Shown: one piece after another, positions 17,390-31,249 of the stretch | How the letters are laid out: every line of letters begins with the position of its first letter | How positions within the stretch are numbered: position 1 is the first letter of the stretch | Position numbers and translations under genes: made by a program | Assembly (NCBI GenBank): GCA_012521675.1 | Contig: JAAYLU010000008.1 | Span: forward strand, 1-32,990 | Direction of reading: 5' to 3' | Length of the DNA: 32,990 nt | Source: Synergistaceae bacterium | GTDB taxonomy: Bacteria; Synergistota; Synergistia; Synergistales; Aminobacteriaceae | Notes under the pieces: model-generated | What the model was told of the DNA's origin: nothing | What the model saw: only the letters and a program-made list of their open reading frames with translations | The model's database searches: none

Positions 17390-17460
17390 CGGTCCGACCC
17401 CCTCCGCTCGCGACGCTTCACATGCCCCAATCCTATCACGAATCAGCTCGGGCGTCGTCC

Positions 17461-18222
17461 CTACCCCCTCACTCCCGCCACTATGCTCCTGCAGGCGTCG
17501 GCGAAGATCAGGGTGTCGGTGCTGTAGGCTATGTAGGTGAAGCCCTGCTCTATCCGCGCGCGGGCCTCTTCCACCGTGGAGACGAAGATGCCCGCGGGCT
17601 TGCCGGCCCTCTTCGACGATGCCAGCGCCTTGGCGACCGCCTCCACCATCTTCGGGTGGTAGATCTCCCCGGGGACGCCCAGCGACTGCGACAGGTCGTA
17701 GGGGCCGATGAAGATCACGTCCGCGCCCTCGACCGCGGCTATCTCGTCCAGACAGTCCAGGCCCAGCCGGTTCTCGCAGTGCAGTATTACCATCGTCTCG
17801 CGGTTGGCCTCCTTGAAGTAGTCGGCCACGCTGCCTGCGAAGCCGTAACGCGACGATCTGGTGAACGCCGCGCCCCTCTCCCCGACCGGGTGATACTTGG
17901 CGAAGCGGACTATCTCCTCCGCCGTGCGGCGCGAGTTGACCTGGGGCGCTTGGATTCCGGCCGCGCCGACGTCCAGTATGCGCAGTATCGTGGTGGCCTC
18001 CGGGTTGGTCACCCGCACTATCGGGGTCATTCCGCGAAGCTCGGCCGCTCTGATCATGTGCTGGATGGAGCCTGCATCCCCCGGTCCGTGCTCTGTGTCG
18101 ATTATGCAGAACTCGAACCCGGCGAGGGCTGCGATCTCCACCAGGTCGGGGCTGTCCGTGTTGATGAACAGGCCGAGGACCGTTCCGCCGTCAGCAAGGG
18201 TTCTTTTCAGTTCGTTCTTCAT
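17461..18222 (-). CDS. HpcH/HpaI family aldolase
   Basis: 253-residue class II, metal-dependent aldolase of the HpcH/HpaI (citrate lyase beta-like) fold. Visible motifs are FCIIDTEHGP (catalytic His region), PIVRVTNPEATTILRILDVGAAGIQAPQV, the loop KYHPVGERGAAFTRSSRYGF, ILHCENRLGLD (metal-binding Glu) and GADVIFIGPYDLSQSLGVPG (metal-binding Asp). The closest named relatives cleave 4-hydroxy-2-oxoheptanedioate or 2-keto-3-deoxy-L-rhamnonate into pyruvate and an aldehyde; the substrate here is not fixed by sequence. The frame is open to 18270, but the ATG at 18222 has GGAGGATGA in front and begins MKNELKRTL, as in the family. The gene diverges from the UPF0182 gene across about 100 bp. Confidence 0.88.
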   Translation of the reverse strand: MKNELKRTLADGGTVLGLFINTDSPDLVEIAALAGFEFCIIDTEHGPGDAGSIQHMIRAAELRGMTPIVRVTNPEATTILRILDVGAAGIQAPQVNSRRTAEEIVRFAKYHPVGERGAAFTRSSRYGFAGSVADYFKEANRETMVILHCENRLGLDCLDEIAAVEGADVIFIGPYDLSQSLGVPGEIYHPKMVEAVAKALASSKRAGKPAGIFVSTVEEARARIEQGFTYIAYSTDTLIFADACRSIVAGVRG

Positions 18223-18286
18223 TTTCTCATCCTCCGTTCCGTGTGTCTCCGTCCACTGTGCATTATACATCCGCGTCGCTGCATTT

Positions 18287-18315
18287 TTGACCGGTTGCGA
18301 AAAGTCGGATACAAT
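18287..18315 (+). promoter_or_regulatory. Consensus promoter placed for a leaderless UPF0182 transcript
   Basis: TTGACC (18287-18292), 17-nt spacer, TACAAT (18310-18315). The predicted start (18321-18323) is only 2-4 nt before the ATG at 18325, and there is no Shine-Dalgarno in front of that ATG. Confidence 0.75.
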
Positions 18316-18324
18316 GAGCGCACT

Positions 18325-21135
18325 ATGAGTAAATACGACTGGTTTCCTGACAATGAGTGGTTTCCGGGGGATGAGCAGACTCCCCCAAGACGTCCGGTGA
18401 TCCGGCTACCCAAGGTCAACAAGTGGCTCCTGATCCTCGCGGCGGCAGTCCTGCTCGTATCGCTGCTGCTTCCGGCGCTCGCAGAGTTCTACACGGACTG
18501 GCTCTGGTACGACTCCGAGGGCTACGGCTCGGTCTTCTGGACGCGACTGTTGGCCCGGGTCCCGCTGTTCCTGGCGGGGCTTTTGGCCTTCACCGCGGCC
18601 ATCTGGGTGAACCTTGTGTTCGTGCGGCGCAACCTTAGGGAGATACGTCCCGAATTCACACCGCTGCTCTCATCCAGGGCGGCCGGGATTGCAGTTGGAG
18701 CCATCGCGCTGTTCATCGGAGTCACGGAGGGGGCGTCACTCTCCGCGGAGTGGGCGATGGTGCTTCGCTTCTTCAACGGTACACCGTTCGGCGTGACCGA
18801 TCCGGTCTTCGGCAACGACGTGGGCTTCTACATATTCTCCCTGCCCTTCTGGTCGTTCGTGCACTCCCGACTGATGGGAGCGCTATTCCTGTGTGCAATG
18901 ATGGCGCTGGTCGGCTACGGGGCGACTCTGGCCCCCAGGAGCCGCGACCTGGCCGACATTCACGTGCCCAAGAACGTTCGCTCGCACCTGATCGTCCTGG
19001 CATCCATCGGAGCGCTGCTGTGGGGGCTTGGCTACGCGCTCGACCGGTACGCCATACTCTTCTCGCCCACGGGCGTGGTCTTCGGAGCGGGCTACACGGA
19101 CGTGCACGCGGGGCTGCTTGCGCTCAACGTGCTGACGGTCGGCTCCATCCTGGTGTCGATAGCCCTTCTCTTCACCCTGTTCAAAGGTAGCTGGAAGCTG
19201 CCTCTGTGGCTGCTGGGCTTCCTGGTTGTGTCCAGCTTCGTGCTTCGCGGCGTCTACCCTATGATAGTACAGAAATACATAGTCGAGCCGAACGAGTTCG
19301 ACAGGGAGAAGCGCTTCATCGAGAACAACATTGAGGCGACGCTGCGCGCCTACAACCTGCACAAGGCCGAGCTGCAGACCATAGTGCCCGCGGAGGCGAT
19401 CACGTGGCGCGACGTGGAGGAGAACCGCGACACGATCGACAACATCCGCCTGTGGGATCACGAGCCTCTTCTGCGCAGCTACAAGCAGCTGCAAGAGATC
19501 CGCACATACTACGACTTCTCAAACGTGGACATAGACCGCTACACCATACCGACTCCCGACGGGGGAACCCAGTATCGCCAGGTGATGCTGGCCGCGCGCG
19601 AGCTGGACCTGGCGGGGATGCAGAACCGCACCTGGATCAACACTCGCCTGGAGTTCACTCACGGCTACGGGATCGTCATGAACCCGGTGAACGAGGCCGC
19701 GGGCAGCGGCCTGCCGCGCCTCTGGGTGCGCGACCTGCCGCCGGTGAGCGACATTCCGCTGCCTATCGACCGTCCGCAGATCTACTTCGGGGAGAAGCAG
19801 AGTCCCTACATCTTCGTCGGCACCACGGTGCAGGAGTTCGACTACCCGATGGGCGACTCTAACGCCAGAACGGCCTATAACGGCGCAGGCGGCGTGCCTA
19901 TGGGCACTTTCATGAGGCGGCTGCTCTTCTCCCTCAAGTTCGCGGATATAAAAATCCTCTTCTCCGATGTCTTCACGCCGGATAGCCGGGTGCTCTTCCA
20001 CCAGAACATAAGGGAGAGGCTCACGATGATCGCGCCCTACCTTCAGTTCGAAGGAGACCCCTACCTGGTGGTCTCGGGCGGCAGGCTGGTCTGGATGATG
20101 GACGGCTACACGGTCGCCAACAGCTACCCCTACTCTCAGCCGGTAGTCCTGGGCCGCGGCCGCGCGGTGAACTACATCAGGAACAGCGTCAAGGCCACGG
20201 TGGATGCGTACGACGGAACCATGACCTTCTACGCCGCCGACCCGGAGGACCCGGTTCTTCGCGCGTGGAGCGGCATCTTCCCCGGCGTGTTCAGGCCCTT
20301 CTCCGAGATGAAGCAGGGTCTGAAGGAGCACCTTCGCTACCCGCAGGACCTGTTCAACATACAGAGCGAGATATACCGCACCTATCACATGACCGACGCG
20401 AACACCTTCTACAACAAGGAGGACGTGTGGGACAGGATGGGCGCGGGCGAATCCCGCTCCTCGGCGCCGGAGGCCTACTATGTCAACATGCGCCTCGCCG
20501 GCTCGGACATCGCCGAGTTCGCCCTGATCTCCCCCTTCATGCCGGTGAGCAGGAACAATATGATCGCATGGATGGCCGGGAGGTCGGACGGAGAGAACTA
20601 CGGCAAGCTACTGGTCTACCAGTTCCCTAAGCAGACCCTGATCTACGGCCCGGCGCAGGTGGAGGCTCTGACCAACCAGAACAGCGAGATCTCCGCCCAG
20701 CTGGCCCTGTGGAGTTCGCGGGGAACGGCGGTCATCCGAGGCAATATGACGGTTGTTCCGGTTGGGGAAGGTCTGCTCTACGTGCAGCCTCTCTACCTGA
20801 GGGCGGAGAACAGCGAGCTGCCGGAGCTTCGCCGGGTGATCACCTCCACCGGAGGCAGGGTGGTATGGGGCGAGACTCTGGAGGACTCGCTGAAGCGGCT
20901 GCTGTCGCATCCGGAGACGGGCCTAGGCAGGGCGGACGACCCTGAGATGCCAACCCGCCCGGACGTGCCGCGAACCGAGCCGCGCTCCGACGACGGTACT
21001 CTGTCCGGCCTCGCGGCCGAGGCCATGAAGCGCTGGGACGACTCGCAGGAGGCCCTGCGCAGGGGCGACTGGGAGGGCTACGGCAGGGAGATGAGCGAAC
21101 TTGAGCTGATACTGCGCGAGATGACGGACCGCTAG
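18325..21135 (+). CDS. UPF0182 family integral membrane protein
   Basis: 936 residues. The N-terminal third has about seven membrane helices, the first at about 30-52 (WLLILAAAVLLVSLLLPAL), and family signatures DWLWYDSEGYGSVFWTR, FGNDVGFYIFSLPFWSFV and LDRYAILFSPTGVVFGAGYTD. The remaining two thirds form a large domain outside the membrane, with KRFIENNIEATLRAYNL, FTHGYGIVMNPVNE, IYFGEKQSPYIFVGTTV and SEIYRTYHMTDANTFYNKED. The acidic tail is about 50 residues longer than the last conserved block. The family is widespread in actinobacteria, clostridia and Synergistota but its molecular function is, to my knowledge, unknown. The frame is open far upstream (to 17422), but that part is antisense to the aldolase; ATG at 18325 starts MSKYDWFPDNEWFPG. 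Confidence 0.92.
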   Translation: MSKYDWFPDNEWFPGDEQTPPRRPVIRLPKVNKWLLILAAAVLLVSLLLPALAEFYTDWLWYDSEGYGSVFWTRLLARVPLFLAGLLAFTAAIWVNLVFVRRNLREIRPEFTPLLSSRAAGIAVGAIALFIGVTEGASLSAEWAMVLRFFNGTPFGVTDPVFGNDVGFYIFSLPFWSFVHSRLMGALFLCAMMALVGYGATLAPRSRDLADIHVPKNVRSHLIVLASIGALLWGLGYALDRYAILFSPTGVVFGAGYTDVHAGLLALNVLTVGSILVSIALLFTLFKGSWKLPLWLLGFLVVSSFVLRGVYPMIVQKYIVEPNEFDREKRFIENNIEATLRAYNLHKAELQTIVPAEAITWRDVEENRDTIDNIRLWDHEPLLRSYKQLQEIRTYYDFSNVDIDRYTIPTPDGGTQYRQVMLAARELDLAGMQNRTWINTRLEFTHGYGIVMNPVNEAAGSGLPRLWVRDLPPVSDIPLPIDRPQIYFGEKQSPYIFVGTTVQEFDYPMGDSNARTAYNGAGGVPMGTFMRRLLFSLKFADIKILFSDVFTPDSRVLFHQNIRERLTMIAPYLQFEGDPYLVVSGGRLVWMMDGYTVANSYPYSQPVVLGRGRAVNYIRNSVKATVDAYDGTMTFYAADPEDPVLRAWSGIFPGVFRPFSEMKQGLKEHLRYPQDLFNIQSEIYRTYHMTDANTFYNKEDVWDRMGAGESRSSAPEAYYVNMRLAGSDIAEFALISPFMPVSRNNMIAWMAGRSDGENYGKLLVYQFPKQTLIYGPAQVEALTNQNSEISAQLALWSSRGTAVIRGNMTVVPVGEGLLYVQPLYLRAENSELPELRRVITSTGGRVVWGETLEDSLKRLLSHPETGLGRADDPEMPTRPDVPRTEPRSDDGTLSGLAAEAMKRWDDSQEALRRGDWEGYGREMSELELILREMTDR

Positions 21136-21993: not shown

Positions 21994-22374
21994 TCAGCCC
22001 CTGGCGGCGATCATCCATATTCCCGCCAGGATGGCGGCCATCCCGGCCAGCCTCCAGACGTTCACCTGCTCCGCGAACGCCAGCTTCGACACGGCCAGTA
22101 TCAGCAGGAATACCATGCCGGACATCAGCGGATAGGCGACGGAGAGGTCCGTCCTGCTGAGGGCCGCGCTGAGGAAGATGAAGGAGATACCGAAGCAGCC
22201 CACGCCCGCCACGGCCCAGGGGTTGAGCACTATCGCCATCACCGCGCGGACCGCTCCTCCGTCCAGCAGATCGGCCTTGTGGCCGAATCCGTGCTTCATG
22301 AATGTGTTCGCCAGCGCGTTGAAGAACGCCGAGCCGGTGATCAGCAGCAGAGAAAGCCTGTCCAAGCCCCTCAC
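21994..22374 (-). CDS. Small 4-TM EmrE/EamA-like transporter, possible ArnE/ArnF-type flippase subunit
   Basis: 126 residues with four predicted helices: LLLITGSAFFNALANTFMK, AVAGVGCFGISFIFLSAAL, SVAYPLMSGMVFLLILAVS and LAGMAAILAGIWMIAA. The pattern SVAYPLMSGMVFLL and the size fit the EmrE/SMR-EamA group, to which the ArnE/ArnF undecaprenyl-phosphate-aminoarabinose flippase belongs. Because it diverges directly from an arn operon that lacks an arnE or arnF, I infer that role, but generic small multidrug transporters look alike. I start at GTG 22374, with AAGG 8 nt upstream; the frame is open to 22431 but a promoter lies inside that stretch. Confidence 0.72.
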   Translation of the reverse strand: MRGLDRLSLLLITGSAFFNALANTFMKHGFGHKADLLDGGAVRAVMAIVLNPWAVAGVGCFGISFIFLSAALSRTDLSVAYPLMSGMVFLLILAVSKLAFAEQVNVWRLAGMAAILAGIWMIAARG

Positions 22375-22402
22375 CCTTTCTGCCTTGATAGTCGACGAAA
22401 GA

Positions 22403-22431
22403 AGTATACACTCTCCGGCGAAGTACCACAA
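22403..22431 (-). promoter_or_regulatory. Promoter of the 4-TM transporter gene
   Basis: Minus strand TTGTGG (22431-22426), 17-nt spacer, TATACT (22408-22403), about 20 nt from the predicted start to the GTG. No equally clear promoter for arnT is visible in the 113-nt gap. Confidence 0.55.
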
Positions 22432-22487
22432 ATAACCGGCTTCATGTAGAATTGTCTGGTTGGAATTATACCGGAGAGGTCGATCGA

Positions 22488-24140
22488 ATGAATAATCCCC
22501 GTTCTATAAACTGGATACACGCCCTGTTCGCACTGGGACTGCTGTTCGTATATTTCAGCGGCCTCGGGGCCTACGGACTGCTTGAGCCGGACGAGGGCAG
22601 GTACTCGGAGATCCCCCGCGAGATGATCGAGACGGGAGACTTCGTCACGCCGCGCCTGAACTACGTGAAGTACTTCGAGAAGCCCGCGCTGCACTACTGG
22701 CTCACCGCCGCCTCGCAGAAAGTCTTCGGCGAGACGGAGTTCGCGGGGCGCTTCTGGCCGGCCGTGCTGGCGCTGGGAAGCGTCGCGGTCGCCTGGGCGA
22801 CGTCGAGGCGGATGCACGGCGGGCAAGCGGCCTACTACTCCTCTGCCGTGCTGGGAGCGAGCCTGCTGCACTTCGCGATCGGGCGGATCAACATCATCGA
22901 TATGACCCTCTCCTTCTTCATGACCCTGTCTTTCGCCGGGCTCTGGTTCGCCCTGAAGGAGGACTCCCGTAGGGGACTGATGCTCTTCTACGCGGGGATG
23001 GCGCTGGCCGTGCTGTCGAAGGGGCTGGTAGGGGTTGTGCTTCCCGGCGGTGTGCTGGTCGCCTACTCGCTGATCACGCGAGACATCTCGCCGCTGAAGA
23101 GGGCGATCAACAGGCGCGGAATCGTCCTGTTCCTCATCCTGACAGTGCCGTGGTTCTTCGAGGTATGCCGCAGAAATCCGGATTTCTTCCGCTTCTTCTT
23201 CATACAGGAGCACTTCCTGCGCTACGCCACCAGGATGCACGGCAGGTACGAGCCTGCATGGTTCTTCATCCCGATCCTGATCGTCGGGTTCTTCCCGTGG
23301 GCGGGGCTGCTGCCCGGCGCGATCCTCTCGGCCCTCCCGAGGCCGCTGCGGGCCCTGGGCCGTGAGAAGAGGGACGAGCTCTACCTCCTCCTGTGGTTCG
23401 GGGTGATATTCGTCTTCTTCTCCCTGTCGAGCTCCAAGCTCATCCCTTACATAGTCCCCGCGCTGCCACCGATGGCGATGCTGATGGGAAGCTACCTCGC
23501 CCGCTGCCTGGACGATGAGGACTCCAAGAAGACGGGGCGCTTTCTGCTGTGGAACTCGTTGCTGCTGGTCCCCTTCATAGCGGCGCTGCTCCTCTACCCT
23601 TTCTTCAACAACCGCGAGCCGGCCGGGCTGCTGCTGCCCTACTCCCTGCCCGTGGCCGCGGTGCTGACCATCTTCGTCTACCTCAAGTGGCGGCTCTTCA
23701 CGAGGCGCAAGTTCAAGGAGCTGGCCGTGACCCTCTGCCTCATGTCGCTCCTGACCATCTTCACGTTCGGCAGGGCCTTTCTGCTGTACGACACCCTCCT
23801 TAGCGTTCGCTCCCTGTCGGAGCGCATCCGCGAGATTCGAGGCCCGGACGACGTCATCGTTCAGTTCGCGGACTACCACCAGGCCCTTCCCTTCTACCTG
23901 AAGCAGAGGGTGGTGCTGGTGGATTGGCTGGGAGAGCTGGAGTTCGGCGCGGCGCAGGAGAGAGACCCTTCATGGTTTCTGGACGGCGAGGGGCTGTCCA
24001 AGCTGTGGCGCGGCGAGAGGCGTGTCATCCTGATAATGGACAGGGATCGCCGAGCGCACGCCGCGGAGCGGATGGGCACGGCCCTGCCCGAGCCGGTGAT
24101 CGAGAAGGGCGACGACCTGGTGTTCGTCAACAAGTGGTAG
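22488..24140 (+). CDS. arnT: ArnT-like glycosyltransferase (GT83/GT39 type)
   Basis: 550-residue polytopic GT-C transferase. The first periplasmic loop has GLLEPDEGRYSEIPREMIE, with the Asp-Glu pair expected of the catalytic site, and YFEKPALHYWLTA as in ArnT. There are about twelve helices, the motif LSSSKLIPYIVPALPPMAML, and a C-terminal soluble domain ending in VFVNKW. Such enzymes move 4-amino-4-deoxy-L-arabinose from undecaprenyl phosphate to lipid A on the periplasmic side. The specificity is inferred from the five-gene context, since related mannosyl or other sugar transferases share the fold. ATG at 22488 with GGAGAGG upstream; MSGWNYTG further up is non-coding. First gene of the operon, 19 nt before arnC. 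Confidence 0.85.
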   Translation: MNNPRSINWIHALFALGLLFVYFSGLGAYGLLEPDEGRYSEIPREMIETGDFVTPRLNYVKYFEKPALHYWLTAASQKVFGETEFAGRFWPAVLALGSVAVAWATSRRMHGGQAAYYSSAVLGASLLHFAIGRINIIDMTLSFFMTLSFAGLWFALKEDSRRGLMLFYAGMALAVLSKGLVGVVLPGGVLVAYSLITRDISPLKRAINRRGIVLFLILTVPWFFEVCRRNPDFFRFFFIQEHFLRYATRMHGRYEPAWFFIPILIVGFFPWAGLLPGAILSALPRPLRALGREKRDELYLLLWFGVIFVFFSLSSSKLIPYIVPALPPMAMLMGSYLARCLDDEDSKKTGRFLLWNSLLLVPFIAALLLYPFFNNREPAGLLLPYSLPVAAVLTIFVYLKWRLFTRRKFKELAVTLCLMSLLTIFTFGRAFLLYDTLLSVRSLSERIREIRGPDDVIVQFADYHQALPFYLKQRVVLVDWLGELEFGAAQERDPSWFLDGEGLSKLWRGERRVILIMDRDRRAHAAERMGTALPEPVIEKGDDLVFVNKW

Positions 24141-24159
24141 GCATGTCAAGGAGGTTCCA

Positions 24160-25098
24160 ATGTCCGAAAAGTGCGTTGTATCAGTCGTAGTTCCCGTCTA
24201 CAACGAGGAGGATTCGCTGCCGCACCTGTGTCCCAGGCTGCTTGAAACCCTGGACGGGATGGATCGCCCCTACGAGGTCATCTTCGTAAACGACGGCAGC
24301 AGGGACTCCTCCCTCAGGCTTCTGCTGGAGTGCCGCGAGACCAACAGGGGCAAGGTGCGCGTGATCGACTTCAACGGCAACTTCGGCCAGCACATGGCGA
24401 TAATGGCGGGCTTCGACCACGCCAGGGGCGATATAATAGTCACGCTCGACGCCGACCTGCAGAACCCGCCGGAGGAGATCCCCCGCCTTGTGGCGGAGAT
24501 CGACAAGGGGCACGACGTGGTCGGCACGGTGAGACAGAACCGGCGCGACCCGTGGTTCCGCAAGGCCGCCTCACGCATGGTGAACTCGATCACCAACAGG
24601 ATCACGGGATTGAAACTGAACGACTACGGCTGCATGCTGCGCGCCTACAGGCGAGACGTGGTGGACATAGTCAACCGCAGCTTCGAGAGCACCGTCTTCA
24701 TCCCGGCGCTGGCTCAGAAGTTCGCGCTGAACCCGGTGGAGATTCCGGTAGCGCACTCGGAGAGGGTGCACGGCACGTCGAAGTACAGCATCTTCCGCCT
24801 GATACGGCTGAACTTCGACCTGATGACAGGCTTCTCCCTCTTCCCGCTGCAGGCTGTCACTATGATCGGGCTGGCTGTCTCGGCGCTCAGCTTCGCCTTC
24901 GCTGTCTTCCTGATGCTGCGAAGGCTTATCGTCGGCCCGGAGGCGGAAGGGGTATTCACCCTGCTGAACATCAACTTCTTCCTGATGGGGATCACGATGT
25001 CCTGCGTGGGCATCACGGGCGAGTACATCGGGCGGATCTACCAGGAGGTCAGAAAACGTCCCCGCTACGTCATCCGCAGGGAGTGGGACGATGATTGA
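24160..25098 (+). CDS. arnC: Undecaprenyl-phosphate Ara4FN transferase ArnC
   Basis: 312-residue GT2 transferase that loads the formylated aminoarabinose onto undecaprenyl phosphate at the inner face of the membrane. N-terminal GT-A domain: VVPVYNEEDSLPHL, FVNDGSRDSS, GFDHARGDIIVTLDADLQNP (DAD metal site) and NDYGCMLRAYRRDVV; then two C-terminal helices at about 225-290. It is similar in length to E. coli ArnC (322); dolichol-phosphate mannosyltransferase-like enzymes are the alternative, but the neighbours support ArnC. AAGGAGG before ATG at 24160; its end overlaps the next gene by 8 nt. Confidence 0.88.
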   Translation: MSEKCVVSVVVPVYNEEDSLPHLCPRLLETLDGMDRPYEVIFVNDGSRDSSLRLLLECRETNRGKVRVIDFNGNFGQHMAIMAGFDHARGDIIVTLDADLQNPPEEIPRLVAEIDKGHDVVGTVRQNRRDPWFRKAASRMVNSITNRITGLKLNDYGCMLRAYRRDVVDIVNRSFESTVFIPALAQKFALNPVEIPVAHSERVHGTSKYSIFRLIRLNFDLMTGFSLFPLQAVTMIGLAVSALSFAFAVFLMLRRLIVGPEAEGVFTLLNINFFLMGITMSCVGITGEYIGRIYQEVRKRPRYVIRREWDDD

Positions 25099-25999
25099 CC
25101 TGTCGGCGGCCGTCTTCGCCTACAGTGAGGTCGGCCACGTCTGTCTTGCCGAGATGCTGAGGCAGGGGGCCGAGGTCCGGGTCCTCTTCACCCACGAGGA
25201 CGACCCGGCGGAGAACCGCTGGTTCCCCTCCGTGGCGGAGCCGGCGCGCGAAGCGGGGATCCCGGTGCGCACGCCGGAGGCGCTCGGCGACGCGGAGTAC
25301 GACCTCCTGCGCGAGCTTGCCCCGGACGCGATCTTCTCCTTCTACTACCGCAGCATGATAGACGAGCGGTTTCTCTCGCTTCCGCCCAAGGGAGCGTTCA
25401 ACATGCACGGCTCTCTGCTGCCCCGCTACCGGGGAAGGGCCTGCGTCAACTGGGCAATACTGAACGGCGAGACGGAGACGGGCGCGACCCTGCACCACAT
25501 GGTCCGCCGAGCCGACGCGGGGGACATAGTGGACCAGGAGGCCGTGCCGATCCTGATGGACGACACGGCGCTGGACGTGACGCACAAGGTGGCGGAGGCG
25601 GCACGGACAATACTCGGACGCACACTGCCGCTGATCGCGGACGGCACCGCCCCGCGAACGCCGCAGGACGAGTCGAAGGCCACTCTCTTCGGCCGCAGGA
25701 GGCCGGAGGACGGGCTGATAGACTGGAACGACGGCGCTGTGAGGGTGCACAACCTGGTGAGAGCCGTCACCAGCCCCTTTCCCGGGGCGTTCACATTTCA
25801 CCGGGGGAAGAAGCTGTTCGTCTGGAGGACGTCGGTCGAGGCGCCGCTGAAGCCGCTTGACGACGCGCAGCCCGGCGCCGTCCTGTCGATCGACCCGCTG
25901 CGCGTGGCTACCGGGCTGGGCGCTCTGCTGATACACGACTACGAACTCGACGGCGGCGATATACGCACAGGGGACATCTTGCGGGCATCGGCCCGTTGA
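25091..25999 (+). CDS. UDP-Ara4N formyltransferase (separate N-terminal half of ArnA)
   Basis: 302 residues matching the formyltransferase half of bifunctional ArnA. Visible are the family N-terminus (VFAYSEVGHVCLAEML), FSFYYRSMIDERFL, the catalytic AFNMHGSLLPRYRGRACVNW (Asn and His), RRADAGDIVDQEAV (catalytic Asp) and, in the C-terminal subdomain, GRRRPEDGLIDWNDGAVRVH. It uses 10-formyl-tetrahydrofolate to formylate UDP-aminoarabinose. In enterobacteria it is fused to the decarboxylase; here it is a separate gene. ATG at 25091 lies within the last codons of arnC. Confidence 0.9.
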   Translation: MIDLSAAVFAYSEVGHVCLAEMLRQGAEVRVLFTHEDDPAENRWFPSVAEPAREAGIPVRTPEALGDAEYDLLRELAPDAIFSFYYRSMIDERFLSLPPKGAFNMHGSLLPRYRGRACVNWAILNGETETGATLHHMVRRADAGDIVDQEAVPILMDDTALDVTHKVAEAARTILGRTLPLIADGTAPRTPQDESKATLFGRRRPEDGLIDWNDGAVRVHNLVRAVTSPFPGAFTFHRGKKLFVWRTSVEAPLKPLDDAQPGAVLSIDPLRVATGLGALLIHDYELDGGDIRTGDILRASAR

Positions 26000-26024
26000 A
26001 CTGAAAAAATAGCGCGAGCGAGGG

Positions 26025-26055
26025 AGCGGCATCCCGAGCTCGACGCAAGGAGGAC
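26025..26055 (+). repeat. Fragment of dispersed intergenic repeat inside the arn operon
   Basis: GGCATCCCGAGCTCGACGCA, within the 61-nt gap between the two arnA-half genes, resembles the right half of the element at 30147-30174 (GTCATCCCGAGCTAAGGCAA). It supplies the Shine-Dalgarno AAGGAGG region of the downstream gene. Confidence 0.4.
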
Positions 26056-26060
26056 GCGAG

Positions 26061-27065
26061 ATGAAAATTCTGATCCTGGGAGCCAACGGCTTCATCGGCT
26101 CTCACCTGGTAGAGGGCATACTGGAGGGGACCGACTGGGGCGTGAGCGCATTCGACCTTTCGGGCTCGAATCTGGAGGCTTATTCGGACAGCCCGCGTTT
26201 CTCCTTCAAACAGGGGGACATCTTCACCGACGACGACTGGCTGAGGCGCGCGGTCGCTGACGCGGACGTCGTGCTGCCCCTGGCCGGAATAGCCAAGCCC
26301 TCCTACTACCTCAGCAAGCCCCTGTGGACCTTCGAGCTTGACTTCGAGCAGAACCTGAAGATCGTCCGCATGTGCGTCGAGGCCGGGAAAAGGGTGGTCT
26401 TCCCCTCGACCTCCGAGGTATACGGCATGAGCTCGGACACTGTGCTTAAGGAGGACGAGAGCCCGCTGATCGTCGGACCGATAAACAAGATGCGCTGGAT
26501 ATACAGCTGCGGCAAGCAGATGATGGACAGGGTGATAGCAGCCTACGGGCAGGAGCAAGGGCTGCGCTATACCCTCTTCCGCCCGTTCAACTGGATAGGG
26601 CCAAGGCTGGATACCTTCAAGGACGCGGAGGAACGCACCGCTCGTTCCATCACGCAGATGGCGCACGACGTGATCACCGGGCGCGGCATCACCCTGGTGA
26701 ACGGCGGAGAGCAGCAGAGGAGCTTTACCTACATCTCCGACGGGATCGCCGCGCTGCTTGCCATCCTGCGCGATGAGAGGGCGAGCGACGGCAGGATATT
26801 CAACATCGGCAACCCGGCCAACAACGCCTCTATCAAGGAGCTGGCCCGCATCGTCGTCGAGGTCATGAAGGAGATCCCGGCCTTCCGCGAGGCCGCCGGG
26901 AGGGCGACGGTGACGGTGATGTCCGCCGAGGAGTACTACGGCAACGGCTACGACGACATGCAGAACCGCGTGCCGTCCATCGAAGCGATCGGAGAGGCCC
27001 TCGGCTGGAAGCCTGTCGTCCCGCTGCGCGACGCGGTGGCCATGACGATAGCCAGCTATCAATAA
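26061..27065 (+). CDS. UDP-glucuronate decarboxylase (separate C-terminal half of ArnA)
   Basis: 334-residue extended short-chain dehydrogenase that oxidatively decarboxylates UDP-glucuronic acid to UDP-4-keto-pentose. Motifs: NAD site ILGANGFIGSHL, VLPLAGIAKPSYYL, VFPSTSEVYGM (catalytic Ser/Thr), INKMRWIYSCGKQMMDRVI (Tyr and Lys of YxxxK), RPFNWIGPRLD and QQRSFTYISDGIAAL. Each matches the decarboxylase half of ArnA closely. The product needs the aminotransferase ArnB to become UDP-Ara4N, and ArnB is not encoded in this window. ATG at 26061 with AAGGAGG. Confidence 0.92.
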   Translation: MKILILGANGFIGSHLVEGILEGTDWGVSAFDLSGSNLEAYSDSPRFSFKQGDIFTDDDWLRRAVADADVVLPLAGIAKPSYYLSKPLWTFELDFEQNLKIVRMCVEAGKRVVFPSTSEVYGMSSDTVLKEDESPLIVGPINKMRWIYSCGKQMMDRVIAAYGQEQGLRYTLFRPFNWIGPRLDTFKDAEERTARSITQMAHDVITGRGITLVNGGEQQRSFTYISDGIAALLAILRDERASDGRIFNIGNPANNASIKELARIVVEVMKEIPAFREAAGRATVTVMSAEEYYGNGYDDMQNRVPSIEAIGEALGWKPVVPLRDAVAMTIASYQ

Positions 27066-27085
27066 CTTTTCAGGAGGTTCTCGGG

Positions 27086-27991
27086 GTGAAAGAGACAGTT
27101 CTGGTGATCAAGACCGACGTCGACACTCTCAAGGGCTACCGCGAGGGCGTGCCGAGGCTGCTCGAGATCTTTCGGGCCAGAAAGATGCGCGCATCGCTCT
27201 TCTTCTCGTTCGGGCCGGACAACTCGGGCAAGGCCATTCGGCGGGTTTTCAAGAAGGGCTTCATCCAGAAGATGCGCAGGACGAAGGCGCCTTCCACATA
27301 CGGCCTGCGGACCATGCTGTACGGCACACTGCTCCCCGCGCCGAAGATAGTACAGAGCGAGCCAAGCGTGTTCATCAGGGCTATCCATGAGGGGCACGAT
27401 TGCGGCATTCACTGCTGGGACCACGTGGACTGGCACGACAACCTTCACAATATGGAAGAGCACGAGATAAGAGCGGCGTTCGGCAAAGCGATGGAGCTGT
27501 TCGAGCACCATGCCGGCCGGCCGGCCAAGAGCTGCGCCGCCCCCGGCTGGCAGGCGACCCCCGCCAGCCTATCGGTGCAGGACGAACTCGGCTTCGAATA
27601 CTGCAGCGACGCCAGGGGCCCGGGGGGCCCCTTCCGCCCCCGAATGGAGGGCCGCGAGTTCAAGACCCTGCAGATACCCACAACACTTCCGACCCTGGAC
27701 GAGCTGATGGGAACCATTCCGGCGGAGAGGATCAACGATCGTTACATGGAGCTGATTCGCCCCGGGCTGAACGTGCACACCATACACGCAGAGATGGAGG
27801 GGCAGTCGCAGAGCGCCCTGTTCGAGGACCTGCTGGAGCGCTGCGCCAAAAGCGGAGCGACCTTCAGGACGCTCGACGACGTAGCGCTGGAGACAACCGT
27901 CAGCGGCACGGAGATCCCTGTCTGCGAGGTAAAGCCGGGCGAGATCCCCGGCCGCTGGGGAACGGTGGCGGTACAGAGCTGCGAGGCGTAG
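27086..27991 (+). CDS. arnD: Ara4FN-phosphoundecaprenol deformylase ArnD
   Basis: 301-residue polysaccharide-deacetylase-fold enzyme that removes the formyl group from the lipid-linked sugar, making the pathway irreversible. Motifs: VLVIKTDVDTLKGYREGVP (Asp pair), MRASLFFSFGPDNSGKAIRR, HEGHDCGIHCWDHVDWHD (metal His residues), KSCAAPGWQATP and FEYCSDARGPGGPFRP. The start is GTG at 27086, with CAGGAGG about 10 nt upstream. Last gene of the operon; the run from arnT to arnD has small gaps throughout. Confidence 0.93.
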   Translation: MKETVLVIKTDVDTLKGYREGVPRLLEIFRARKMRASLFFSFGPDNSGKAIRRVFKKGFIQKMRRTKAPSTYGLRTMLYGTLLPAPKIVQSEPSVFIRAIHEGHDCGIHCWDHVDWHDNLHNMEEHEIRAAFGKAMELFEHHAGRPAKSCAAPGWQATPASLSVQDELGFEYCSDARGPGGPFRPRMEGREFKTLQIPTTLPTLDELMGTIPAERINDRYMELIRPGLNVHTIHAEMEGQSQSALFEDLLERCAKSGATFRTLDDVALETTVSGTEIPVCEVKPGEIPGRWGTVAVQSCEA

Positions 27992-28113: not shown

Positions 28114-28479
28114 ATGAACCGTCCCGACGATTTCACATTATCCGCCCTTCTTGACCTTGACGGGCATCGATTTACCATAGAAAATGGCGAGTATACCATC
28201 AAATTCGTTGTATCGTTGACCAGACCAACGGAGAATATTCCACATGGGATTCGATACAGTCTTACCCTGCACGATAAAAACGGCATCAGGGTTCTTGGCT
28301 ACGACAACAGCAACCATGACTATCGACCGTTGAGCAAACGACAATATGTCGCAAGAAGGATCGAATGGGATCATCGTCACCACAAGGAGACTGTAACACA
28401 ATACGGTTTTTCAACCGCCGCCAATCTGCTTGAAGATTTCTGGGAGGACGTAAGAAGAGTTATTGGACGATGGAGGTAG
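28114..28479 (+). CDS. TumE-like toxin family protein (DUF6516 type)
   Basis: 121 residues; the body ENIPHGIRYSLTLHDKNGIR, VLGYDNSNHDYRP and WDHRHHKETVTQYGFSTAAN followed by LLEDFWEDVRRVI fits the small DUF6516/TumE toxin family (a likely RNA-acting toxin, mechanism not established from sequence). Conserved features I rely on are the GYDN segment, the HRHHK cluster and the LLEDFW helix. Codon use is clearly AT-richer than in neighbouring genes, so it was probably acquired. GAGGTG precedes the ATG; the presumed antitoxin starts 4 nt after its stop. Confidence 0.72.
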   Translation: MNRPDDFTLSALLDLDGHRFTIENGEYTIKFVVSLTRPTENIPHGIRYSLTLHDKNGIRVLGYDNSNHDYRPLSKRQYVARRIEWDHRHHKETVTQYGFSTAANLLEDFWEDVRRVIGRWR

Positions 28480-28483
28480 AAGA

Positions 28484-28681
28484 ATGGATTATTCCGATAG
28501 AATGAAGAAATATGGCGTGATGTCAACGGAGGACTTTCGCCAAATGACATTGGACATAGCTGCGGGAAAATACCGTCCCTCGCCCGATGTCCCTAGAATA
28601 ATCTTCGGATCACACAAAAGTCTCGCAGAGTACGCCGAGGAGGAGGCAAAGAAGGAGAAATCGCCGATATCAGCGCAGTAA
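28484..28681 (+). CDS. Probable partner antitoxin of the TumE-like toxin (short form)
   Basis: 65 residues, MDYSDRMKKYGVMSTEDFRQ, then PDVPRIIFGSHKSLAEYAEE. This matches the N-terminal segment of the regulators that usually follow TumE-like toxins (EDFR...DEPKI.F.S..SLAE), but those proteins are normally about 120 residues with a winged helix; here the protein ends straight after the segment with a lysine-rich tail. ATG at 28484 has GGAGG 7 nt upstream; an in-frame TTG at 28463 lies inside the toxin gene. It is AT-rich like the toxin. Cotranscribed with it. Confidence 0.6.
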   Translation: MDYSDRMKKYGVMSTEDFRQMTLDIAAGKYRPSPDVPRIIFGSHKSLAEYAEEEAKKEKSPISAQ

Positions 28682-28991: not shown

Positions 28992-29918
28992 CTACTCCCT
29001 CATCCGGTACACCACCACGAAATAGCTCGTGCCGCCGCTCTTCTCGGCCTCCTGCTCGTCGTAGTCGAACGACGACGCGTACGCGGCTATGACCGGCTCG
29101 GCACCGAGCTTCCTCTGCAGGGTCATTTGGACATAGAGCGCTCCGCGCGAGTCTATGTGCGACGGCTGGCGGAGCGACAGCGCCTGCTCCGGGTCGCACG
29201 ACATTATGACCGCCTCGCTCTCCGAATCATGCGCTTCCGTCTCCTCCCTGTTCAGATAATGAGAAAAATCCGTGCTCTGTATGACCAGCGCCTCCTCGCC
29301 CGAGAGCGGCGCAAGAGCGGCGGCCAACTCGCGCCACTCCCCTGCTCCTGACCTTATCCCGATCGCGACCGGAAGTACCGGCACTCCGGGAAAATAGCGT
29401 GCTACGAAGGGCAAGAGCGCCTGGACTCCGTGCTCGTGCGAAAACAGGTTCGACTCGCTCGCACAGGACAGTATTTTCAGCCGCTCGGCCCCGTCCCTGT
29501 CCAGCGGCACGGGACCGAGGGCGGTCAGGAAGTCCCGCCCCGGCACGGAGAAGAACGTCCTCCCGCGATGGTAGTGGTCGGGGCACAGAATGATCACCCT
29601 GCCGAAATCGCGCTCCCCGATCGTGGCGAACCCCGCGGCGATCAGGTCTGCCGCCAGCAGGTGATGCGGCACGATCAGGCCGGTGACCCGTCCCTCGACT
29701 GGCGTCGCGGACGCGGACTCGATCGCCTCCTCGAAGAGAGAGCCCGGATAGAGCGGCGGGAAGGGACGATCCCATGCGCGCGACGAAGCTGCCTCCCCGT
29801 GCGGTGCTAGGAGCAATAGTACTGTAAAGGCCAGGCGGACTCCGAGCAGCGCTCCCTTCAAACCGAGGGTCGCGCCAGTTATCCGTATGGGAAGGCTGAA
29901 CAGGGCCCGTCGAGCCAT
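28992..29918 (-). CDS. Exported MEMO-family protein (AmmeMemoRadiSam system protein B-like)
   Basis: 308 residues. It resembles the MEMO/AmmeMemoRadiSam B family: GLIVPHHLLAADLIAAGF, RVIILCPDHYHRGRTFFSVP, SESNLFSHEHGVQALLPFV and VIQSTDFSHYL. The two His regions of the family metal site are present, but where the family has a Cys (CG.GAI-like) near the C-terminus this protein reads IDSRGALYVQM. Unlike most relatives it begins with a basic segment and a hydrophobic stretch (LAFTVLLLLAPHGEAAS, about residues 28-44), so it is probably secreted or anchored. I start at ATG 29918, with AAGGATGAGG upstream; two earlier ATGs (29930, 29954) are in frame. No AMMECR1 or radical-SAM partner is adjacent. 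Function unknown. Confidence 0.83.
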   Translation of the reverse strand: MARRALFSLPIRITGATLGLKGALLGVRLAFTVLLLLAPHGEAASSRAWDRPFPPLYPGSLFEEAIESASATPVEGRVTGLIVPHHLLAADLIAAGFATIGERDFGRVIILCPDHYHRGRTFFSVPGRDFLTALGPVPLDRDGAERLKILSCASESNLFSHEHGVQALLPFVARYFPGVPVLPVAIGIRSGAGEWRELAAALAPLSGEEALVIQSTDFSHYLNREETEAHDSESEAVIMSCDPEQALSLRQPSHIDSRGALYVQMTLQRKLGAEPVIAAYASSFDYDEQEAEKSGGTSYFVVVYRMRE

Positions 29919-29954
29919 GAAAATCCTCATCCTTTCTCGAAGCTCCCACGGCAT

Positions 29955-30203: not shown

Positions 30204-31211
30204 CTACTGTTTTTTGGCCCCATGCTCCAGCCATCGACGCCCCTTGTCCGTCAATCGATACTTCTGAAGGCGGCTGCTCGGCTTGTCGGGAATGGTCATC
30301 TCTATCAGACCTTCGGCCAGTGCCGGTCTTAAGTATCGTTCGCGAAAAGACTTGCGATCCGAGAGTCTTAAGGCGGCCTGCAGTTCTTCGCGACTCATCT
30401 CGCCCTCCAACGCAACCAGCAGTTCGCCGACTTGGGGGGTGACTTGGAGGGCGACTTGGGGGGTGCATGTCAGAGCATCAAGGATCATCCGCAGCATGAA
30501 GTCGATGAATGGCGCAGAATCTGTCCGCCGAGTGCTTTCCTCAATCACATCATAATACTCGGCCTGATGTTCAAAGACCAGGCTCTCCACCGGGATGTCG
30601 GTGAACAACGGGTTCCAGCGGGAGAGGATCAGGCTCTGCCACAGTCGCCCCATGCGGCCGTTGCCGTCGGAAAAGGGGTGGATGAACTCGAACTCGTAGT
30701 GAAAGACAGAGCTTGCTATGAGCGGGTGAACATCGGTCACGGCCATCCAGTCCAACAGATCGTCCATCAGCTGCGGCACCCGGCCTGCGGGGGGCGCCAT
30801 GTGAATCACCCGCTGACCCGCCATCACCCCCACGCCCCCGCTCCGATACAACCCGGCCTCCTCGACAAGGCCGTCCATCATGATCCGGTGCGCCTCAAGC
30901 AGGTCCTTTTCAGACGCCGGTCTCCATGTATGCAGCCGGTCGTAGGCGGCCAGGGCGTTTTTCACCTCGCGAACCTCCCTGGGAGGGGCGACGACCCGTT
31001 TGCCCTCCAGAATCGCGGTGACGACCTCCGTTCCGAGCGTGTTGCCCTCGATGGCCAGCGAGCCGCGAACGGTCATGACGCGATTGATCCGTCGCAGTCG
31101 CAGAGACCGCTCGTTCTCCGCAAGCGCCTCCATTCGACCCGTGGCCTCGCATATCGCCGCGACCCGATTCAGAATTTCGGTGGTTATCGTGCAAGGCGGC
31201 TGGTATTTCAT
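30204..31211 (-). CDS. Fic family protein (class II, probable AMPylase)
   Basis: 335 residues. The Fic core has HPFSDGNGRMGRLWQ (catalytic His178, GNGR phosphate loop) and the flap region GVGVMAGQRVIHMAPP. The N-terminus holds SLAIEGN (Ser51-Glu55-Gly56), which fits the inhibitory (S/T)xxxE(G/N) helix of class II Fic proteins, so activity is probably self-inhibited. Fic domains transfer AMP to a hydroxyl side chain of a target protein. After a TPQV-ALQV-TPQV repeat (30429-30464) comes a C-terminal winged-helix-like segment (SREELQAALRLSDRKSFRER, ending RLQKYRLTDKGRRWLEHG). ATG at 31211 follows GGGGGGAC; a TTG six codons up is the alternative. Stand-alone gene with an AT-rich promoter. The target is unknown. 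Confidence 0.9.
   Translation of the reverse strand: MKYQPPCTITTEILNRVAAICEATGRMEALAENERSLRLRRINRVMTVRGSLAIEGNTLGTEVVTAILEGKRVVAPPREVREVKNALAAYDRLHTWRPASEKDLLEAHRIMMDGLVEEAGLYRSGGVGVMAGQRVIHMAPPAGRVPQLMDDLLDWMAVTDVHPLIASSVFHYEFEFIHPFSDGNGRMGRLWQSLILSRWNPLFTDIPVESLVFEHQAEYYDVIEESTRRTDSAPFIDFMLRMILDALTCTPQVALQVTPQVGELLVALEGEMSREELQAALRLSDRKSFRERYLRPALAEGLIEMTIPDKPSSRLQKYRLTDKGRRWLEHGAKKQ
30429..30464 (-). repeat. In-frame 12-bp tandem repeat in the Fic gene
   Basis: Three 12-nt units (plus strand GACTTGGGGGGT, GACTTGGAGGGC, GACTTGGGGGGT) encode TPQV, ALQV and TPQV between the Fic core and the winged helix. Confidence 0.9.
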
Positions 31212-31249
31212 GCTGTCCCCCCGTCGCAAGCCGTTCTCGACTCAGTTTT

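Follow-up and report, generated by a model that had tools for sequence, protein, structure and literature searches.

A PseC-type aminotransferase as a probable stand-in for ArnB in a Synergistaceae aminoarabinose pathway

How might aminoarabinose (Ara4N) receive its amino group in a bacterium whose arn cluster holds no gene for the aminotransferase ArnB? The question is posed by a 32,990-nucleotide stretch of DNA (the window) from a Synergistaceae draft genome (G000; 2.2 Mb, 121 contigs, 97.6% complete), the closest relatives of which are Synergistaceae MAGs. The + strand of the window carries five genes in tandem, in the order arnT, arnC, formyltransferase, decarboxylase, arnD, an arrangement that the original prediction had proposed and that coordinates and family matches bear out. 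The product of arnT (22452-24140, +), the lipid A Ara4N transferase of family GT83, matches PF18583 (Arnt_C) above cut-off and NF009784 below cut-off (E = 4e-78), and an ATG at 22488 is a likelier start than the listed 22452. ArnC (24160-25098, +), the undecaprenyl-phosphate Ara4FN transferase of family GT2, and ArnD (27086-27991, +), the Und-P-Ara4FN deformylase, match NF007986 (E = 5e-112) and NF011923 (E = 3.5e-69), respectively, each below the equivalog cut-off, and ArnD also matches PF01522 above cut-off. Between them are encoded a separate ArnA1-like formyltransferase (25091-25999, +; NF005414, 373 bits, cut-off 316) and a separate ArnA2-like oxidative decarboxylase, the UDP-4-ketopentose synthase (26061-27065, +; NF008872, 453 bits, cut-off 294).

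Identity to the E. coli K-12 proteins is 51% for ArnC, 47% for the formyltransferase, 46% for the decarboxylase, 38% for ArnD and, over the full length, 24% for ArnT. The formyltransferase triad N104/H106/D142 corresponds to N102/H104/D140 of ArnA, decarboxylase residues S118/E119/Y148/K152/R303 correspond to S433/E434/Y463/K467/R619, ArnD retains D11/D13, and the PDEGRY and YFEKP motifs of ArnT align with those of E. coli ArnT. ArnT, ArnC, ArnD and both ArnA activities are thus encoded with their catalytic residues present, and the assignment to the aminoarabinose pathway stands. The gene order is the same in seven close relatives (L009-L015, with L014 broken off inside arnC), which argues that the cluster is not a chance assembly. 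A genome search for lipid A genes, suggested alongside the original prediction, found the acceptor genes for LpxC and LpxK, both over cut-off, and two UDP-sugar dehydrogenases are encoded in the same genome. In a literature search whose scope was without most subscription journals, we found nothing on Ara4N in Synergistota.

The two halves of ArnA are indeed separate genes, and the 61-nt gap between them contains a ribosome-binding site. The emphasis originally placed on this split was misplaced, and its novelty is ruled out by the literature and by existing family models: a 2025 survey of 877 bacterial species that have both domains found fused ArnA in only 39, each belonging to Pseudomonadota, took separation as ancestral and described it as the common state outside Gammaproteobacteria (PMC12650200), Burkholderia cenocepacia carries ArnA1 and ArnA2 as separate genes (PMC3123600), and both halves in the window exceed the cut-offs of NCBI families built for separate proteins (NF005414 and NF008872).

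A divergent gene overlooked by the earlier description (21994-22431, -) encodes a small membrane protein of SMR/EamA type that matches PF00893 above cut-off and the ArnF family NF002816 with E = 3e-8, far below cut-off; only one such subunit was seen. Homologues lie divergently upstream of arnT in L009-L013, L015, L016, L023 and L027, and follow arnD directly in L029, L036-L040, L042, L043, L070 and L072. Since the link to arn genes persists over much of the phylum, whichever way the gene points, the protein is a likely candidate for an ArnE/ArnF-like subunit of the Arn flippase. Elsewhere in the window are genes for a UPF0182 giant membrane protein (17422-21135, +; 966 bits), the listed start of which adds a probably non-coding 5' stretch, a TumE-type toxin (28114-28479, +; PF20126) overlapped by a small ORF that could be its antitoxin partner (28463-28681, +), a Memo-like protein with a signal-like N terminus (28992-29954, -; PF01875) and what looks on inspection like a Fic-type protein, bearing the motif HPFSDGNGR (30204-31229, -).

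The absence of ArnB from the cluster, as first proposed, is confirmed, with no DegT-family gene present there. Only 19 nt separate arnT from arnC, so no arnB remnant is concealed between them. In L009-L013 and L015 the order is likewise SMR gene (-), arnT, arnC, formyltransferase, decarboxylase, arnD with no arnB seen, whereas L016, L023 and L027, from other families of the same taxonomic order, share this arrangement with a true ArnB (47-48% identical to that of E. coli) between arnT and arnC. The position that arnB takes when it is present is therefore known, and the lineage of the window lacks the gene. The original prediction had held that an adjacent arnB in close relatives would indicate a simple local loss; adjacent copies do occur in those other families, but arnB is absent from every near relative, which points to replacement throughout the lineage rather than loss in one strain.

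The genome-wide search for ArnB that had been suggested returned, with PF01041, five full-length DegT enzymes, all on other contigs and none of them ArnB by NCBI family and tree (the enzyme on contig C112 by family only). The best of them against the ArnB family NF008658, an enzyme of PseC type, reaches 270 where 631 is required, a threshold that canonical Synergistota ArnB also misses (429-440), making the tree the better test; the tree likewise says that this enzyme is not ArnB. Among the three explanations originally offered for the missing enzyme (ArnB encoded elsewhere, service by another aminotransferase, or a different final sugar), another aminotransferase encoded elsewhere is the best supported.

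Our candidate is this PseC-type, PLP-dependent enzyme, encoded on contig C42 (G000:C42:13235-14365, -) directly after a tRNA deaminase gene. Its neighbourhood, with the tRNA deaminase upstream and OmpH downstream, is kept in G000-G006 and contains no pse genes. Among the five DegT enzymes it comes closest to E. coli ArnB (34% identity, 226 bits, compared with 146-184 for the others) and scores 440.9 bits with the PseC model TIGR03588 (cut-off 423.5). The remaining DegT enzymes look as though they serve in different pathways; two resemble LegC, and the gene for one of these adjoins that for a legionaminate synthase on C98. That locus (L131), which encodes an SDR dehydratase, the LegC-like aminotransferase and a NeuB-type synthase, is likely a legionaminic acid cluster. 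No PseB exceeds the cut-off in the window's genome (best 198 against 407.75 bits), and the one full NeuB-type synthase encoded there is the legionaminate-type enzyme on C98; together these leave no pseudaminate pathway that would need the C42 enzyme. The PseI model gave no match at all in G004-G006, three close relatives that carry a C42 orthologue.

The C42 enzyme retains the active-site lysine, aspartate, histidine and glutamate. At the K241 column, ArnBs have lysine and every PseC-type enzyme, including this one, has asparagine. Trp89 is said to bar N-acetyl sugars from Salmonella ArnB (PMC5936713). As a marker of ArnB this residue is ruled out, with Phe in the canonical ArnBs of Synergistota, Elusimicrobiota and Pectinatus; the column is Phe in PseC-type enzymes and canonical Synergistota ArnB alike. 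T262/Q265 is constant in reference PseCs and those of pse clusters apart from L123, and becomes S/H in the window's clade, mostly S/H in enzymes resident in arn clusters and N/S in L050/L051, changes that hint at altered specificity.

Orthologues about 45-52% identical to the C42 enzyme are encoded inside the arn cluster itself in L018, L044, L045, L047, L049-L063, L065, L066 and L069, where they adjoin arnD and the decarboxylase or stand between arnC and arnT, and their carriers include many rumen/gut Synergistota. No arn cluster was seen with both a PseC-type enzyme and ArnB. In L120, L165 and L166 the gene for a 60% orthologue belongs to or adjoins a set of pse genes, and the arn cluster of these genomes encodes a true ArnB. 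In some genomes the PseC-type gene also plays the part of PseC.

In a tree with reference PseCs drawn from annotated plasmids (a search of a phage collection gave no useful reference), all PseC-type enzymes and the reference PseCs form one clade (support 99/96), and the ArnBs, that of E. coli among them, form another (100/98). The window's enzyme groups with the arn-resident enzymes (94/90), apart from the Synergistota PseCs in pse sets; with moderate tree support, we do not regard this grouping as strong. An AU test rejected placement of the window's clade with ArnB (p = 8e-6) and did not reject it as sister to pse-cluster PseC (p = 0.31). The L050/L051 enzymes branch as a second, separate adoption, so that the tree suggests at least two entries of PseC-type enzymes into arn clusters. 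A single origin of all arn-linked PseC-type enzymes, cluster-resident and stand-alone, was rejected (AU p = 0.007, for a group named after seeing the tree).

We then counted occurrences in the window's genome and those of 60 relatives (61 in all), scoring ArnB within 4 kb of the decarboxylase and PseC-type enzymes at 50% identity or more. The decarboxylase is present in 37 of the 61, the window's included, and ArnB adjoins it in 12 of those 37. Where it does not, a PseC-type enzyme is found in 20 of 25 genomes and neither enzyme in 5 (G041, G042, G044, G054 and G070, three of them 94-98% complete), and genomes without the decarboxylase have the PseC-type enzyme in 9 of 24 cases. Fisher's test, which ignores relatedness and for which G075, with an ArnB-like gene, was counted as having none, gives p = 0.004 over all genomes and 0.07 within the window's family. 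The link between the arn decarboxylase and the PseC-type enzyme is modest.

We infer, at a probability of about 65%, that the PseC-clade enzyme replaces ArnB in the window's genome. UDP-glucose dehydrogenase would supply UDP-GlcA, which the enzyme encoded at 26061-27065 would convert to UDP-4-ketopentose by oxidative decarboxylation; the C42 enzyme would then place an amino group on this presumed substrate to give UDP-Ara4N. Formylation by the enzyme encoded at 25091-25999, transfer of the formylated sugar to undecaprenyl phosphate by ArnC and removal of the formyl group by ArnD would follow, after which the SMR protein, as putative flippase, would flip the lipid-linked sugar and ArnT would attach what is presumably Ara4N to lipid A. 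The scheme is built on the genes with their family assignments, the retained catalytic residues, patterns of co-occurrence and placement in the tree, and apart from the aminotransferase step the pathway is ordinary. Against a role for the C42 enzyme stand the location of its gene outside the arn cluster, its PseC-type active-site letters (N at K241), the five arn-bearing relatives with neither ArnB nor a PseC-type enzyme, and several relatives that carry a PseC-type enzyme and no arn genes. G001, G009 and G012 have arn genes, no ArnB and a PseI-like synthase, and their PseC-type enzyme may be PseC.

This last group touches on a possible, if rather doubtful, refinement of the replacement of ArnB by the C42 enzyme, one that does not exclude it: in some lineages pseudaminic acid and Ara4N synthesis may share the PseC-type enzyme, the window's lineage having kept the Ara4N role only. 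G009, G012 and G021 (L161, L163 and L164) each have a PseI-like synthase, one PseC-type gene located on a different contig, and an arn cluster in which ArnB was not seen, that of G021 being only partly visible, and the shared Phe at the Trp89 column would fit such dual use; however, the pse genes are partial in these drafts, PseB was searched in the PseI neighbourhood only, and the assemblies may lack a further aminotransferase gene. An unlikely reading has UDP-Ara4N made by another sugar aminotransferase (for example a LegC-like one, the C59/C89 enzymes or, in certain relatives, a WecE-like one), with a different task for the C42 enzyme. DegT enzymes are often alike in fold and chemistry, and a WecE-type enzyme occurs in four of the five relatives without ArnB and PseC-type enzyme against three of 20 with the PseC type, a contrast noticed after the fact; but no WecE-type match came from the genome of the window, the WecE-type enzyme scores above its own equivalog cut-off, and the arn genes of 65 loci showed none of the four other DegT types that this genome encodes. 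Four arn-bearing genomes without ArnB or PseC-type enzyme (G013, G016, G017 and G007; L189, L178, L190 and L180) have a WecE-type aminotransferase in common. A third type of ArnB in the five genomes was ruled out, their common enzyme being WecE, which is also present in PseC-type genomes.

Quite improbable, in our judgement, is that the true arnB lies outside the assembly or that the amino step is missing, with the cluster decaying or a non-aminated pentose being made. The genome is a draft and MAGs can lose pathway pieces, but the arn genes are intact with their catalytic residues, the absence of ArnB beside the arn genes of all seven close relatives cannot in every case be a gap, and in the established pathway the formyltransferase, ArnD and ArnT would have no purpose if the sugar carried no amino group. 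Replacement by the C42 enzyme is thus our preferred reading for this genome, and for Synergistota at large we consider it slightly better than an even chance that PseC-clade enzymes have repeatedly displaced ArnB, at least twice by entering the arn cluster, with dual use in some lineages possible. If so, databases would name such enzymes PseC and hide an Ara4N function, and genome annotation can overlook Ara4N potential with the amino step labelled as flagellar-sugar synthesis. What looked like a gap in a pathway of the polymyxin-resistance type, in a little-studied phylum, would be filled, and a natural set of enzymes would be at hand for asking how sugar aminotransferases shift substrate.

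Compared with arnBCADTEF of E. coli and Salmonella, the window has the same enzyme classes at every step except the aminotransferase, with catalytic residues kept, but ArnA is split, arnB is absent from the cluster, the gene order differs, and a single divergent SMR gene stands in place of arnE and arnF. Burkholderia cenocepacia resembles the window in its separate formyltransferase and decarboxylase genes (PMC3123600), although the Burkholderia pathway has ArnB and the window's cluster has none. The ArnBs of other Synergistota, Elusimicrobiota and Pectinatus (L016, L023, L027 and others) occupy the same neighbourhood, between arnT and arnC, and belong to the separate clade of E. coli ArnB, which is not found in the window's genome. 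PseC is the UDP-4-amino-4,6-dideoxy-N-acetyl-beta-L-altrosamine transaminase (TIGR03588), and the C42 enzyme and the arn-resident enzymes tested exceed the cut-off of that family and fall inside its clade; the differences are that the window's genome shows no pseB above threshold, that orthologues occur inside arn clusters, and that several columns depart from pse-cluster PseC (T262 to S, Q265 to H).
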